Shown here piece after piece: positions 265 through 63,847 of a DNA stretch of 64,000 nt. Within the stretch, counting starts at the first letter, position 1. Each line of letters starts with the position of its first letter. Where the stretch lies: positions 188,198 through 252,197 of the forward strand of contig MKVQ01000002.1 of NCBI GenBank assembly GCA_001899635.1, given 5' to 3'. The DNA is from Myxococcales bacterium 68-20 (GTDB taxonomy: Bacteria; Myxococcota_A; Polyangia; Polyangiales; Polyangiaceae). The notes under the pieces are model-generated. The model saw nothing but the letters and a program-made list of their open reading frames with translations. It had not been told where the DNA came from and made no database searches. A program made the position numbers and the translations under genes.

Positions 265-652
265 CCGTGCTCACCTCGGGGTTGTCCTGGAATCCAACTT
301 CTGGGCCGCGTGCAACACGCTGGAAAGACAAGCGCGATGCCGGTCCCAATGTGTCCGGGGGGACACGCCGTGCGCCGGTACTGCCTCTACTCCAGCGCGC
401 GGCTTAGGGTGAGAGAGCACCGCGAAAGCTCGTTCTCACGTACATAGGTAGAGGTCAAGAGGCCAAGTTTATTGTGAGCCTCGCCGCCTCGTCGATTTCA
501 ATGCGCGCCGCAGGCGCACCTCTGCGGGTGGTTGGGGCGCGAGCCCTTAGTTTCGTCGCCCGCAACGGGCCGACCATCAGCTCCCGAGCACGGCAAGACG
601 AATCGCCCCTGGCGACCGCTCTCCGCTCGACGCGATTCGGCCGCGCCGACGC
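265..652. other. Intergenic region with one copy of a dispersed repeat
   Basis: The 388-base spacer between the start of ddl and the end of the PP2C gene. Bases next to ddl should hold its promoter, but I see no convincing -35/-10 pair. The middle holds repeat copy D (491-558). Open frames crossing the region lack the codon bias of neighbouring genes and are not called. Confidence 0.6.
491..558 (-). repeat. Dispersed two-hairpin repeat, copy D
   Basis: Read on the minus strand, this copy holds GGGCTCGCGCCCCAA, then ACCCGCAGAGGTG, then the hairpin GCGCC-TGC-GGCGC, and ends with TTGAAATCGAC. It aligns without gaps to copies B (56536-56599), A (49007-49066) and C (63783-63847). Its second hairpin carries a C-G pair where A and C have G-C, a compensatory difference. 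It lies between two same-strand genes and is not part of any coding sequence. Confidence 0.75.
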
Positions 653-1438: not shown

Positions 1439-1880
1439 CGGCTTCGAGACAAGCAACGGTCATGATACCGGGGACCAAGCACCGACACATCAAGAAATTG
1501 GGGCTCGCGGGCTGGCCTTCGACCCGCGTTGAATTTTCGAGGCTTGTCCACCGCAGTTTCCGGTTTCACCTGAGGAGGCTCGACCTCGGAGGGACGTGCG
1601 CTCCTCGATTGCCCAGTTTCCCCCGGACTTCTCGGAGCTTCCGAGCACTTCTCGAGACTCGACTTCAAGCATCGCGGCCCCGGTGGTCGGAGCGCCGACC
1701 GCCCGGCGGAGGACTCCGGTCGGCGCCGGCGCTCGGCTCGCCTCCCCTGAACCCGCTCTCCTCGAGCCCCGGATGAGATAGCTTCGGGCGGTGGTCGACG
1801 GGGGGCCTGTGCTCCGTCCTGTTGCGTGAGTCGCGTGAATCGCGTCCATCGCGCCGGTCGACATCGGGAGGAACAGGGGA
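1439..1880. other. Divergent promoter region with a truncated dispersed repeat
   Basis: The 442-base gap between the divergently transcribed PP2C and sctV genes. It should hold promoters for both, though no clear -35/-10 or -24/-12 element stands out to my eye. It carries repeat copy E (1494-1540). The rest looks non-coding. Confidence 0.6.
1494..1540 (+). repeat. Dispersed two-hairpin repeat, truncated copy E
   Basis: Reads GAAATTGGGGCTCGCG, then GGCTGGCCTTCGACCCGCG and TTGAATTTTCGA. Both ends match the other copies, but about 19 central bases (the second half of hairpin 1 and the ACCCGCAG spacer) are missing. It looks like an internal deletion derivative. Weaker than the other four copies. 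Confidence 0.5.
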
Positions 1881-47804: not shown

Positions 47805-48911
47805 ATGAGAGCGACCTCTTCCTTCGGTTCGACGTTGTTCGCGTTCGCGGTCCTCGCTGTCTCGCTCGCTGCTTGCGATGGCGATGAGACCACTCCCGAC
47901 GCGCCGGCCGGAGGCGCGAGCGCCGCTTGCCAGCAGGCGCCCAAGGTCGAGAAGAACGCGTTCTGCGCAGCCTGCGAGATGTCACCGACGGCCCAGCCTG
48001 CAACCTGCAAGGCGCCGCGAACGGTGAACGCGTGCTGCGCATGGGTAGCGCCTCCGTCGAACCCGCTCCAGCGCGGGATCGGCCTCAACCGCTACTCGAC
48101 GACCGACCCCACGATTCAGCTCTCTTGCCTCGACGATCCCGGCCCGGTCGGGACGCCCACGACGGTCACGCTGAAGGGGTTCGTCCGCCTGTTCTCGAGC
48201 GGCGGCGACTCGACCGGCGTGAAGATCGAGATCTTCAAGGAGGGCGAGGACGGCTCCCTGGGCGCGGCGATCGGCAGCCCCGTGGTCACGACCTCCGACG
48301 ATACGAACGTGAAGAAGGAGGACTGGCTCGAGAAGTGCCCCGACAGCGGGTGCACCCTTCGCGGCTACACGTATCCGGGCGTGCCGACGGAGACGCGCCT
48401 CATCGTCAAGACGTCGGACGCGTCCGGCGGCTCGCAGTGGGCCGCGCTCTACGACTACAATATCTACTTCTCGAACTCGGCCGTCGTCGACGGCACCATC
48501 GACTACGAGCCGTCGGTCGTCGCCGCCACCGACATCAACACGGTCGCGTCCGCCGCTGGCGGCTTCTCGCCGAGCCAGGAGAAGGGCATGATCGCGGGCG
48601 AGGTCCACGACTGCGGCGACATCCGGCTTGCGGGCGCCACGGTCGACATCGACGCTGCGCACGAGGGCGACATGTTCTACTTCGGCGACAACGAGGCGAA
48701 TCCCCTGCCCGACAAGACGCGCACATCGGCGGGCACGAGCAAGCTCGGTCTCTTCGGCACGCTCAACGTCACGACGGGCGTCCCGATCCGGATCAGCGCG
48801 CTCGGCATCCACGACGGCCAGACCGTGCTGCTCGGCACGCACACCGTTCAGGCATTCAAGGGCGGAGTCACGGCGCTCCGCCTCCGCGGCCGGCGCCCCT
48901 GGCAGCAGTGA
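47805..48911 (+). CDS. Putative lipoprotein, unknown function
   Basis: 368 residues. Signal peptide with lipobox (AVSLAAC, then DGDE), Cys near 24, then a Cys-containing part (CQQAPKVEKNAFCAACEMSP, ATCKAPRTVNACCAW) and a beta-rich C-terminal half with VTLKGFVRLFSSGGDSTGVKIEIF and MIAGEVHDCGDIRLAGATVDIDA, reminiscent of carboxypeptidase-regulatory-like Ig folds. The position of the Asp right after the lipidated Cys would keep it in the inner membrane by E. coli rules, but those may not apply here. Function unknown. Divergent from queG. Confidence 0.78.
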   Translation: MRATSSFGSTLFAFAVLAVSLAACDGDETTPDAPAGGASAACQQAPKVEKNAFCAACEMSPTAQPATCKAPRTVNACCAWVAPPSNPLQRGIGLNRYSTTDPTIQLSCLDDPGPVGTPTTVTLKGFVRLFSSGGDSTGVKIEIFKEGEDGSLGAAIGSPVVTTSDDTNVKKEDWLEKCPDSGCTLRGYTYPGVPTETRLIVKTSDASGGSQWAALYDYNIYFSNSAVVDGTIDYEPSVVAATDINTVASAAGGFSPSQEKGMIAGEVHDCGDIRLAGATVDIDAAHEGDMFYFGDNEANPLPDKTRTSAGTSKLGLFGTLNVTTGVPIRISALGIHDGQTVLLGTHTVQAFKGGVTALRLRGRRPWQQ

Positions 48912-49006
48912 TCTTCTGGCCAAAGCACAGATGAGATCGGGGTTGGTCCCGCGAACGGCACGCCCGACGCGAAGCGGAGGGCCCGCGTGGGGGGAGGCTC
49001 CGCCGG

Positions 49007-49066
49007 CCTTGGGGCTCGCGCCCCAACTACCCGCAGTGGTGGGCCTTCGGCCCGCGTCGAGTTCAC
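49007..49066 (+). repeat. Dispersed two-hairpin repeat, copy A
   Basis: Holds hairpin 1 TTGGGGC-TCGC-GCCCCAA (49009-49026), the spacer ACCCGCAGTGGT, hairpin 2 GGGCC-TTC-GGCCC, then GCGTCGAGTTCA. It lies between the lipoprotein gene and the TrmN6-like gene. An imperfect inverted repeat flanks it: TTGGTCCCGCGAACGGCAC near 48943 on the left, and the minus-strand TTGGTCATGGGGACGGCAC near 49090-49107 on the right, so copy A may sit inside a larger element of about 165 bp. Confidence 0.75.
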
Positions 49067-49110
49067 TCCGGCGGAACGGGGCGGCGCGTGCCGTCCCCAT
49101 GACCAAGCAA

Positions 49111-49138
49111 GGCTTTGCCCCAGCGCTGGGGCAAAGCC
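49111..49138. repeat. Perfect 28-bp palindrome abutting a start codon
   Basis: The arm GGCTTTGCCCCAGC is followed directly by its exact reverse complement. The palindrome ends at 49138, two bases before the ATG at 49140. It could be a hairpin on the mRNA that hides the start, a terminator of the preceding transcript, or a site for a dimeric protein. Confidence 0.7.
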
Positions 49139-49139
49139 G

Positions 49140-49913
49140 ATGAGGGCCGAGAGCGTTCTCGCGGACGTGAGCCATGACTGGCTCTTTGCGGGGACGCTCT
49201 CGCTCCGGCAGCCCGCGCGGCGCACCGGTTATCGCGTCAACGTCGACGCAATCCTCCTCGCGGCCTTCGCCGCGCGCGTGCTCCCGGGCGGCGAGCTCCG
49301 CGCGGCGAGAGGTGGGCGCGCGCGCCACGCGGTCGACCTCGGATCCGGCGTGGGCGCGGTCGGGCTCACGCTCCTCCATCTGGAGGCAGCGACGCGTGTG
49401 ACGATGGTCGAAGTCGACGATGTGCTCGCCCGACTCGCTTCGGAGAACGCCGCCGAGAACGCCTGGGCCGATCGGACCGAGGTCGTCCATTCCGACGTCC
49501 GCCGCGCCGCTTCGTCGCTCGGCGGCGCGGACCTCGTCGTTTGCAATCCTCCCTACGTGACGCCCGGCCGCGGACGCGCGCCCGCCGAACGCGTACGCGC
49601 GGCGAAGTACGGCGACCTCGCGACCTTCGTCGACGCCGCGCGGCGGATCACCGGACGACGCGCACGCGCCTGCTTCGTCTACCCGGCGATCGAGGCGATG
49701 ACGCTGCTGACGATGCTCCGTGATCACGGGCTCGAGCCGAAGCGCCTGCGCGCGGTCCACGGAAGAGCGAGCGACAAGGCGCGCGTCGTCCTCGTCGAAT
49801 CGGTGCCGGGCAAGCCGGGCGGCCTCGCGGTCGAGCCGCCGTTCGTCGAGACCGACGGGCGCGGAGGGCGGAGCGCCGAGCTCGCCGCGTTGCTCACGAT
49901 GCCACGTCACTGA
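49140..49913 (+). CDS. TrmN6-like class I methyltransferase
   Basis: 257 residues. SAM-binding motif I DLGSGVGAVGLTLLHL, then MVEVDDVLARLASENA, and the N6-adenine-type catalytic motif NPPY in ADLVVCNPPYVTPG. This arrangement matches TrmN6 (YfiC), which methylates adenine 37 of tRNA-Val, though the substrate cannot be confirmed. Some members act on proteins. ATG at 49140 sits immediately after the 28-bp palindrome, without a clear Shine-Dalgarno site; a more upstream GTG (48987) would read through the repeat and is unlikely. Confidence 0.82.
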   Translation: MRAESVLADVSHDWLFAGTLSLRQPARRTGYRVNVDAILLAAFAARVLPGGELRAARGGRARHAVDLGSGVGAVGLTLLHLEAATRVTMVEVDDVLARLASENAAENAWADRTEVVHSDVRRAASSLGGADLVVCNPPYVTPGRGRAPAERVRAAKYGDLATFVDAARRITGRRARACFVYPAIEAMTLLTMLRDHGLEPKRLRAVHGRASDKARVVLVESVPGKPGGLAVEPPFVETDGRGGRSAELAALLTMPRH

Positions 49914-53454: not shown

Positions 53455-54992
53455 TGGCCCTCCGGACCGCTCGACTCGATCGCCTTGATCCCGATCGCCT
53501 CGAGCTGTGGCTGAATCTTCGCGCGCGGCCCGACGATCACGATCGTTGCCCGGTCGAGATCGAGGTGCTGCCCTGCGAATCGCTTGAGCTGTGCCTTGTC
53601 GGCGCGCGCGGTCACGTGACTCGCCAACGCCTCACGGTCGGGCGCGAGCCCGACGCCGGCGTTGCGGCCGAGGCGAGCCGCGGCTGCCTGGACCGTCTCG
53701 AACGCCTCGACCAGGTCCGCGCGCGCGAGCTGCTTCGTCTTCTCGATCTCCTCGTCCGTGAGCCCGCTCTTCGCGAGCCCGCCGATCTCCGCGAGCATGG
53801 CCGCGAGCGCGTCGCCCGTGTGCTCGGTGTGGACGGCTGCCTGCGCGACGAACACCCCGCGCATCCGCGTGAACGAGAAGCGACTCCGCGCGCCGTAGCT
53901 CCAGCCATGCTCCTCGCGGAGGTTCTGGTTCAGGCGCGACGTGAAGCTGCCGCCGAGCGCGGCGTTCACTCGCGTGAGGACCGCGCTCTCCTCGTCGAAG
54001 GCCGACACGCCGGGGCGAGCCACGGCGATGACGGACTGCGGTGCGTCGGGCCGGTCGACGACGATGACACGACGTGAGGTCGACGATGCGCCGCCTCCAC
54101 CCGAACGTCCGAAGTACGGCGCGGGCGACCCGAGCGGCTCACCGGACGGCGGAGGCGCCGCTGGCGCCTTCCAGAACGCGAGCGCTTGATCGAGGACCGC
54201 GTCGAGCTGCGGTCGCGTGACGTCTCCGACGACCACCAGCGTCGCGCGGTCGGAGCGCCATCGCTCGGCGTAGAACTTCTTCACGTCGTCGAGCGTCACC
54301 TTCGCCGCCGACGCGAGGGTGCCGTCGCTCGGGTGGGCATACGGATGGCCCGCCGGGTACACCTTGCGCGCAACGACCACGCTGGCGACCGCGTCGGGCT
54401 CGCTCTGACGTGCCCGGAGCGCGTTCTCCCAGAGCTCGTGGACCCGCTTGAACTCGACCGGGCTGAGCTGCGGCTTGCTCACGACGTCGCCGAAGATCTC
54501 GGCCGCGGGCGCGAGGTTCTTCGTGAGCACGGTGAGCTGCACGAAGCCGTAGTCCGCGTACGCGCCGGTGCGGAGGGTCGCGCCGAGGCGATCGACGTCA
54601 CGCGACAGCTCGAGCGGCCCGCGCTTGCCGGCGCCTTCGTCGAGCATGTTCGCCGTGGTCACGGCGAGGCCGCCCTTCCCTTCCGGATCGTGCGCAGCAC
54701 CGGCCGGGACGACGACCTGCATCGAGACGATCGGGAGGCCATGGCGCTCGAGGAGCCAGACATTCATCCCGTTGGGACGCTTGTAGTGCACCGGGACCGG
54801 CGGCGTGTACGGCGCGGGCTCGCCGGCCTCCGGACGCGGGCCGAGCGGATCCGGCACTGCTCCAGCGTCTGCGCTCACGCCTGTCCGCGGCGGTCCCGGT
54901 GGACGCGTCGCGTCTCCTCCACCGCAAGCGGCCAGCGCAGGGAGGGCCGCGCATGCGAGCGCGAGCGCGAGCGAGCTCGAGGAGCGCTTCAC
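53451..54992 (-). CDS. M16-family peptidase subunit without zinc ligands, lipoprotein
   Basis: 513 residues. Signal peptide with lipobox ALPALAAC (Cys near 22), Pro-rich linker, then an M16 (pitrilysin) fold from about residue 70: HYKRPNGMNVWLLERHGLPIVSMQVVVPAG is typical. Where active M16 enzymes have the zinc motif HxxEH, this reads GGLAVTTANMLDEGAG, so no zinc is bound. The C-terminal half keeps EEHGWSYGARSRFSFTRMRGVF, the R/Y motif of the non-catalytic half. It is probably the partner of the next upstream gene, with which it overlaps by four bases (GTGA). GTG start at 54992. Confidence 0.85.
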   Translation of the reverse strand: MKRSSSSLALALACAALPALAACGGGDATRPPGPPRTGVSADAGAVPDPLGPRPEAGEPAPYTPPVPVHYKRPNGMNVWLLERHGLPIVSMQVVVPAGAAHDPEGKGGLAVTTANMLDEGAGKRGPLELSRDVDRLGATLRTGAYADYGFVQLTVLTKNLAPAAEIFGDVVSKPQLSPVEFKRVHELWENALRARQSEPDAVASVVVARKVYPAGHPYAHPSDGTLASAAKVTLDDVKKFYAERWRSDRATLVVVGDVTRPQLDAVLDQALAFWKAPAAPPPSGEPLGSPAPYFGRSGGGGASSTSRRVIVVDRPDAPQSVIAVARPGVSAFDEESAVLTRVNAALGGSFTSRLNQNLREEHGWSYGARSRFSFTRMRGVFVAQAAVHTEHTGDALAAMLAEIGGLAKSGLTDEEIEKTKQLARADLVEAFETVQAAAARLGRNAGVGLAPDREALASHVTARADKAQLKRFAGQHLDLDRATIVIVGPRAKIQPQLEAIGIKAIESSGPEGQ

Positions 54993-56535: not shown

Positions 56536-56599
56536 GTCGAACTTGGGGCTCGCGCCCCAACCGCCCGCAGAGGTGCGCCTTCGGCGTTCGTCGAAATCG
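56536..56599 (+). repeat. Dispersed two-hairpin repeat, copy B
   Basis: GTCGAACTTGGGGC-TCGC-GCCCCAA, spacer CCGCCCGCAGAGGT, hairpin 2 GCGCC-TTC-GGCGT (one G-T wobble), end TCGTCGAAATCGC. Lies upstream of the sigma-factor gene, between the M16 operon and the sigma start, and may be in the sigma-factor leader. Confidence 0.75.
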
Positions 56600-63782: not shown

Positions 63783-63847
63783 CAAACTCGACGCGGGCCG
63801 AAGGCCCTCCACTGCGGGTACTTGGGGCGTGAGCCTCGAGTTCGATG
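63783..63847 (-). repeat. Dispersed two-hairpin repeat, copy C
   Basis: Minus strand: GAACTCGAGGCTCACGCCCC, then AAGTACCCGCAGTGGA, hairpin 2 GGGCC-TTC-GGCCC, and GCGTCGAGTTTGCC. Hairpin 1 is partly broken (GGC/GCC only). Lies between dnaK and the next gene. Confidence 0.75.

Follow-up and report, generated by a model that had tools for sequence, protein, structure and literature searches.

A short sequence at positions 49007–49066 of the 64,000-nucleotide stretch of Labilithrix DNA analysed here (the window) raises the question of whether a set of dispersed hairpins is maintained for a function in the host or spread by mobility. The first-pass annotation of the window had listed five copies, and had read them as a REP/REPIN-like or MITE-like family, or as a structured RNA or protein-binding element, in part because one hairpin had changed in sequence with its pairing kept. 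Overall, our analysis indicates that this observation was correct and understated, that its covariation argument is weak, and that its mobile-element reading is supported.

All five copies were present where they had been placed, each being readable directly in the sequence and alignable with the others. The copy at 49008..49061 (plus strand, 54 nt, 79.8 bits with our covariance model) is a full one, made up of a head hairpin (49009-49026), a middle unit (49027-49039), a tail hairpin (49041-49053) and the end GCGTCGAG (49054-49061), and it lies between a gene without a Pfam match and a methyltransferase-domain gene, both codirectional with it. A 28-base palindrome, GGCTTTGCCCCAGCGCTGGGGCAAAGCC, was observed at 49111-49138 between this copy and the next gene, with no terminator-like T-run there. 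Full copies were also found at 56542..56595 (plus strand, 77.7 bits, C-G as the tail pair), with a minus-strand M16 peptidase gene on one side and a plus-strand sigma-70 family gene on the other; at 497..550 (minus strand, 73.7 bits, tail pair C-G), 3' of a PP2C phosphatase gene; and, with an altered head hairpin, at 63787..63840 (minus strand, 65.8 bits, tail pair G-C), 3' of an Hsp70 gene. When the last of these was aligned with the sister genome G003, the corresponding region was shorter and its junction unreadable. The fifth copy (1497..1533, plus strand), in the divergent gap between a PP2C and an FHIPEP gene, is internally deleted, as had been reported: about 18 nt of its middle are absent, the head 3' arm and the middle unit being lost, and it was not among the matches of the covariance-model search at E ≤ 0.1. 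Several window copies have tempting inverted flanks. A weak, possibly decayed model match at 53590..53657 (minus strand, 18.5 bits, E 0.021) was excluded from the copy count. When the window was searched for the head hairpin CTTGGGGCTCGCGCCCCAA with up to three mismatches, six rows were returned against a shuffle expectation of 0.02, a number reached in 0 of 100 shuffles; these correspond to four places, two of which were counted once per strand owing to the near-palindromic form of the hairpin. No Rfam family reached its gathering score in the 64-kb window, and a relaxed threshold gave only matches far below threshold at four loci.

The family extends well beyond the window, as the annotation had expected of a genuine repeat. 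When a covariance model based on 22 copies was run on the source genome (G000; 11.9 Mb, 52 contigs, 98.4% complete; genus Labilithrix, Polyangiaceae), 148 of the 150 candidates that were scored passed E ≤ 0.001, so that the genome has at least 148 copies; scoring ended at 150 candidates, which makes this a lower limit. In 1.68 Mb of this genome (~14%, chosen around known copies) there were 166 model matches at E ≤ 0.1, and these, merged with copies in shorter loci, gave the 179 copies whose gene context is described below. The 20-base core, allowing up to three mismatches, matched 231 times in G000 and 12 times in a reversed control, and we therefore estimate ~220 core matches, a figure that takes in decayed copies and the extra units of multi-unit copies.

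Outside the source genome the element is rare. Among 38 genomes searched, including G000, matches at E ≤ 0.001 were found only in G000, G003 (4 copies) and G006 (5 copies), with at most 139 candidates scored in each; for the 11 Labilithrix congeners, this amounts to detected copies in two (4 and 5) and none in nine. An exact 16-mer of the core, searched in 183 genomes of the order, occurred 78 times in G000, once each in G003, G006 and G032, and not at all in the other 179; the G032 match was rejected as an element on reading its sequence. No model match at E 0.01 was obtained in 20 syntenic stretches from six congeners (~0.32 Mb; best E 0.038) or in 20 further G006 stretches (0.40 Mb; best E 0.011). 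An exact 28-mer had no match in a genome-contig collection from which G000 itself may be absent, an exact 26-mer had none in viral contigs, and plasmids and phages gave no element match. The model and 16-mer searches therefore place most of the family in one species and a small number of old copies in its sisters. A degenerate copy was seen directly upstream of a gene that, judged by a motif, appears to be secA, at the same place in G006 (L067) and G003 (L068), from position 1501 onward.

The unit is ~54 nt long (YTTGGGGC…GCGTYGAR) and consists of a head hairpin, one to eight middle units and a tail hairpin. As read from filled and empty sites, the full unit is Y-TTGGGGC-TCGC-GCCCCAA / CCACCCGCAGNGG / T / GSGCC-TTC-GGCSC / GCGTYGAR. 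A third, weak hairpin, CCACCCGCAGTGG, is present in the middle besides those of the head and tail, which corrects the earlier count of two. The four bases before the head hairpin (-4 to -1) are GAAY, and CGTY lies 3' of the tail hairpin. The edges are sharp and the flanks unrelated, information content being near background outside AAY...GTYGAATT in 57 non-tandem copies (in this set, a cut at 50 bits preceded the filter against tandem or neighbouring copies and second-repeat copies). In a 75-copy alignment, the median identity to the consensus was 0.877. An outer stem closing the three hairpins was considered and rejected: flank pairing of at least 7 bases occurred in 20 of 108 non-tandem copies against 13.3 expected from re-paired flanks, and four of those 20 sit inside the second repeat described below.

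The middle unit, GCCCCAACCACCCGCAGTGGT, recurs at a spacing of 20–23 nt, mostly 21–22, and its number varies: 121 of 141 copies have one and 20 of 141 have two to eight. Multi-unit copies are far more frequent among heads with the three-base TGC loop (13/21, including L122, which on inspection seems to have been miscalled) than among TCGC heads (7/120; p = 1.3e-8). The longest, L094:3825-4041, is an eight-unit array of GGCCCAACCACCCGCAGTCGTT whose head is altered to match (TTGGGCC-TGC-GGCCCAA), which looks as though the array had grown from the head's 3' arm. Neighbouring copies within 300 nt of one another in the examined sequence were in the same orientation in 10 cases, at least two of them being parts of one multi-unit copy, tail-to-tail in 2 and head-to-head in 0. 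At L108, L140 and L146, one GAAY at the junction is common to both head-to-tail neighbours.

Comparison with sister genomes provided sites at which the element is missing. We compared 17 copies with relatives, namely 16 with both flanks matched and the 1494 copy, and 2 of the 17 gave readable empty junctions. The clearest empty site is that of the 1494 copy, which reads CAAGAA^TCTTTGAGG in G006 and CAAGAA^TCTTCGATG in G003, and CAAGAA/ATTGGGG...GTTGAA/TTTTCGAGG in G000, where it is filled (slashes here and below mark the insertion point or the boundaries of the element). The 56542 site, likewise empty in G003 and G006, spans ~20 nt in these two genomes and ~80 in G000, with CCGAAAACGCC in G006 corresponding to GTCGAA/element/ATCGCC in G000. 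The left GAA may belong to the target or to the element, and the number of junctions is small. At two sites a sister also has the element (L070:838 in G003 and G006; L144:13400 in G003), which shows part of the family to be old. For the remaining 13 of the 17, the relative's sequence was shorter or had diverged too far to be interpreted, or the copy was unaligned (L075:9969, L089:4423, L089:4333); of the 16 copies with both flanks matched, 13 were aligned. Target-site duplication was rejected. This is because no excess of matching flank bases was found at the expected positions in 104 copies compared with re-paired flanks, and none was seen at the filled and empty junctions; the flank tests left out the 39 of 147 copies that are tandem or neighbouring, and the duplication tests also left out four copies inside the second repeat.

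The best evidence for mobility comes from filled and empty sites within the source genome itself, in a second dispersed repeat (TGAAGAGCCGTCCAAGnnnTTGGACGATTCGGGGAGCTCGAGGGG...) that has 12 copies in G000 at up to three mismatches and 0 in the control. This repeat (L290-L301, e.g., L294, L296 and L300) reads TGAAGAGCCGTCCAAGnnnTTGGACGATTCGGGGAGCTCGAGGGGTGAAACCCCTCGA, has two or three hairpins, and has a hairpin loop of the form ..CCAA-nnn-TTGG... The loop is empty in 7 of the 12 copies; in the other 5 the element sits in it, always at the same point and facing the same way, and one of these is a multi-unit copy. A further, more diverged copy of the second repeat (L019/L101) also carries the element. 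Three pairs of sites can be read. Empty CCAAGAAC/TTGGACG corresponds to filled CCAAGAAC/TTGGGGC...GTTGAA/TTGGACG, empty CCAAGCG/TTGGACG to filled CCAAGCG/TTTGGGG...GTTGAG/TTGGACG, and empty CCAAGGA/TTGGACG to filled CCAAGGA/CTTGGGG...CATTGCG/TTGGACG. In two of the filled copies the bases are GCG on the left and GAG on the right, and GGA on the left and GCG on the right, so no target bases were duplicated. The loop variants GAAC, GCG and GGA were each found both empty and filled, a pattern that points to more than one event, each of them an insertion or a precise loss. The base before TTGG is in the empty site for the first pair and is brought by the element in the other two, so the exact left base (Y) of the unit is uncertain. 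The target is similar to the left edge of the element itself (GAAY TTGG), a likeness that would explain the head-to-tail arrays too.

Most copies of the second repeat are themselves fused to the ends of genes. In 8 of the 12, a strongly coding frame (score ≥98) stops at the repeat's first TGA; in L297 the frame is weakly coding, and L291, L295 and L298 show no such stop. A relaxed Rfam search of five of its loci gave only sub-threshold matches.

The pairing of the hairpins was analysed in 75 rows, kept from 96 copies of 61–66 nt for their bit scores of at least 45 and aligned without reference to structure (the 21 left out include L010, whose score was assigned by hand); because the scores come from a model with structure, the selection of these rows leans to paired bases. 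Standard pairs filled 88% of pair cells, compared with 85.3% when the 3' letters were shuffled, a value as high being reached in 0/500 shuffles. A single pair of the tail hairpin accounts for 32 of the 35 cells with changes on both sides. The annotation had seen the second pair of this hairpin as G-C at 49007 and 63783 and C-G at 491 and 56536, and the same flip runs through the family, with 36 G-C, 32 C-G and 3 neither among 71 scorable copies. The compensatory changes that had been claimed are thus real for one tail pair, which flips with its pairing kept, and come almost entirely from that G-C/C-G flip; covarying pairs numbered 3, and 4.2 in shuffles. RNAalifold found no common structure among the 75 copies, and in the first 22 copies it found the head and tail hairpins plus a shorter, differently placed middle hairpin. 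Single copies fold little better than shuffles, with z scores of -2.4, -1.1, -1.1, -0.5, +0.1 and -1.3 as RNA (six folds of five copies, one on both strands) and of -0.9 to -1.6 as DNA (four folds). The hairpins are real as sequence, the evidence of selection on RNA is thin, and an RNA function is not indicated by the flip, so the structured-RNA reading is not borne out.

Two subfamilies defined by the G-C/C-G pair were also considered and rejected, nearest-neighbour agreement being 0.555 against 0.497 when permuted (p = 0.14). A mean-distance test gave p = 0.038, and the state of the pair was associated at p < 0.05 with 2 of 25 other columns; from the three tests we conclude that subfamily structure is at most weak. 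Repeated flipping of the tail pair is possible, for example by template switching within the hairpin. One base-pair flip can mimic RNA covariation in a family that is better explained by mobility.

Using gene calls from a simple coding model trained on the examined sequence, we found 146 of the 179 copies to be intergenic, 9 to overlap a gene edge and 24 to lie inside called genes (e.g., L082:9969-10032, L113:9969-10032 and L058:1501-1564); 10% of random 60-mers were intergenic. The statement that every copy is intergenic therefore holds for the window only, where all five lie outside called genes, in both orientations. The unit's 54 nt divide evenly into codons, which makes in-frame insertion conceivable, and insertion of this kind into genes has been described for the rickettsial palindromic elements. 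Gaps between genes are used roughly by length, with 80 copies in same-direction, 51 in divergent and 22 in convergent gaps, which total 120, 61 and 27 kb, respectively. Of the copies in same-direction gaps, 53 are sense and 27 antisense (p = 0.005). Its orientation had no clear link to the local majority gene strand (77 with, 73 against) or to nearby GC skew (67 with, 83 against; p = 0.22), and strand or replication bias was rejected as the cause of the sense bias on these grounds. Selection may remove antisense copies, or transcribed DNA may take up insertions more readily on one strand.

The search for a mobilising enzyme covered Y1 transposases (PF01797) and two IS110-type genes. The REP-like reading had suggested that a RAYT gene might be present in the same genome. 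No PF01797 match was obtained in G000, a draft that could miss the gene, or in G003 and G006, which together are the three genomes with copies; the same profile was positive in 5 of 14 control genomes. Within the genus, 7 of 12 genomes had at least one Y1 match, which in 6 was above the curated cut-off. However, 24 Y1 loci of other congeners (71 kb) held no clear element copy, the best match, at 15.4 bits (E 0.007), being chance-like, as 15.3 bits was reached elsewhere in congeners. The two IS110-type transposase genes in G000 were rejected as the mover, since their loci lie at contig ends and no element ends were found nearby. An autonomous relative, with a gene between head and tail, was likewise rejected: the head-only and the tail-only hits in the 1.68 Mb gave a single head-tail pair within 5 kb, the eight-unit array. 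Genes beside neighbouring copies were listed at nine loci, and the three run against Pfam were an aldolase, an acyl-CoA dehydrogenase and a kinase. IS608 is cleaved at TCAA and guided by a GAAT that lies 5' of a hairpin, and the GAAY before the head and the TYGA at the end of our element would partly fit that logic, which we offer as a lead.

The family is dispersed and sharp-ended, occupies sites that are elsewhere empty, leaves no target duplication, has a hot target and expands by modules. As a whole, these features are best explained by non-autonomous mobile repeats of one Labilithrix lineage that insert precisely at GAA/TTG without target duplication, a reading to which we give a probability of about three in four. 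The element would insert with a GAA-like triplet preferred on the left and TTG(G) on the right, and the loop of the second repeat is a hot target for it. Insertion beside an existing copy would produce the head-to-tail arrays, and the 21–22-nt middle unit would expand and contract secondarily, mainly in heads with TGC loops. We infer that a recombinase or transposase acting in trans would move the element, probably by recognising a folded single strand. Set against this explanation are the failure to find a mobilising gene (PF01797 in the three carriers, a gene between head and tail in the 1.68 Mb), the mere two readable junctions among 17 compared copies, the possibility of precise loss at the second repeat, and the sense bias of 53:27, for which mobility alone is insufficient to account.

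The closest rival holds that this is a REP-type element whose Y1 (RAYT/TnpA-REP) transposase is missing from the draft or has been lost; it overlaps with the explanation above, names the enzyme, and is in our view a real if doubtful possibility. It accords with a short, mostly intergenic hairpin that lacks target duplication and carries GAAY where REPs carry GTAG, and with the Y1 matches in other genomes of the genus. Repeated transposase genes are easily lost from draft genomes, and this draft assembly could have lost one. The three carriers, however, all lack a PF01797 match, the congeners' Y1 loci lack a clear copy, and the missing GTAG tag, the head-to-tail arrays and the modular multi-hairpin build all differ from what REPs would lead one to expect. 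A bolder proposal, to which we assign a rather low probability, is that a system not yet described moves folded hairpin units without HUH/Y1, scarless, at GAA^TTG-like sites resembling the element's left edge, preferring the hairpin loop of another repeat and so building tandem and nested arrays. If true, it could be a possible answer for other hairpin repeats without a known transposase.

Maintenance for the host, as a cis-acting RNA or protein-binding site (an attenuator, mRNA stabiliser or nucleoid site), seems quite unlikely, even though the sense bias in same-direction gaps, the tail-pair flip with pairing kept (36/32/3) and nearly independent of other sequence, and a middle unit of 21–22 nt, or about two helical turns, would each suit it. 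A family kept for such a purpose is hard to reconcile with near confinement to one species, with use of gap types roughly by length, with covarying pairs no more numerous than in shuffles, and with the lack of a common RNAalifold structure in 75 copies, although head and tail hairpins appear in 22. Moreover, no terminator-like or sigma-70-like site was found in the window from 48800 to 49300, where the promoter scan was of the sigma-70 type only. Movement of a classical MITE by the DDE transposase of a resident IS is very unlikely: high copy number and ends that are weakly inverted in some copies (AAYTYG..CGAATT) are set against a GC-rich sequence with no long inverted ends, and the lack of target duplication in 104 copies and at filled and empty sites; the resident IS examined were two IS110-type genes, near which no element ends were found. 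We therefore retain precise, scarless mobility as the preferred reading. Bacterial genomes commonly contain small hairpin repeats, some classes of which have no known mover. Here, a single genome offers both filled and empty sites and a defined junction, and among its close relatives some carry copies and others do not, so that the mover and the target rule are directly testable.

Compared with known systems, the REP/REPIN-like or MITE-like label of the first-pass annotation holds in the broad sense of a mobile hairpin family, given the core matches, sharp edges, unrelated flanks and empty sites, and does not hold as membership, given the lack of a GTAG tag, a Y1 match and a target-site duplication. 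DDE-type MITEs differ in the duplication that is lacking here, and the element's ends are at best weakly inverted; the resident IS inspected for matching ends were two IS110-type loci. Elements of the IS200/IS605 group (IS608) insert beside a short motif without duplication. Like them, our element has a putative GAAT-like guide 5' of a hairpin, and under the rule for that group 3 of 4 positions of its end motif, TCGA, would agree with such a guide; unlike them, it has no transposase gene that we could find inside it or nearby. With REPs and REPINs it shares high-copy intergenic hairpins and a conserved 4-base stretch 5' of the hairpin. REPs have a GTAG tag and a Y1 enzyme (PMC8266576), and dimers in most REP families are head-to-head (PMC3733652). 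The Labilithrix element, in contrast, has GAAY rather than GTAG, a three-hairpin modular unit, head-to-tail arrays and carrier genomes without a Y1 match, and its neighbours are mostly head-to-tail rather than paired in opposite orientation as in a REPIN or BIME.

Closer in some details are the CGTC-tagged REPs, for which passages of PMC3733652 report no dedicated known transposase, give the mover as not known by that paper's own conclusion, and describe some as lying inside palindromes. Our element resembles these REPs in its 4-base hairpin loop and in a stem that has AT pairs at its base and is followed by CCA, and its position inside a second repeat parallels that of REPs inside palindromes (PMC3733652). 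The CGTC/CGTT of our element, however, lies 3' of its tail hairpin, whereas theirs is unpaired and 5' of a single 8–9 bp stem, and our unit is longer and modular, modules not appearing in those passages on REPs (PMC3733652). Among the open-licence papers listed on REPs in myxobacteria and on Polyangiaceae and Labilithrix repeats, we saw no description of this family. Nearest in build are the BOX elements of Streptococcus pneumoniae, which are likewise short, mobile-looking intergenic repeats with an end module, a variable number of middle units, an end module and predicted hairpins, with part of the insertions old and shared (PMC3049150). BOX elements range from 67 to 637 bp, against 54 nt for a one-unit copy here, and are described as having TIR and TSD (PMC3049150); our element is without target duplication, is GC-rich, belongs to a different phylum and has no sequence relation that we could see. 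It is best described as new, unaffiliated and scarless, a mobile repeat that resembles BOX and REP in build and belongs to neither.
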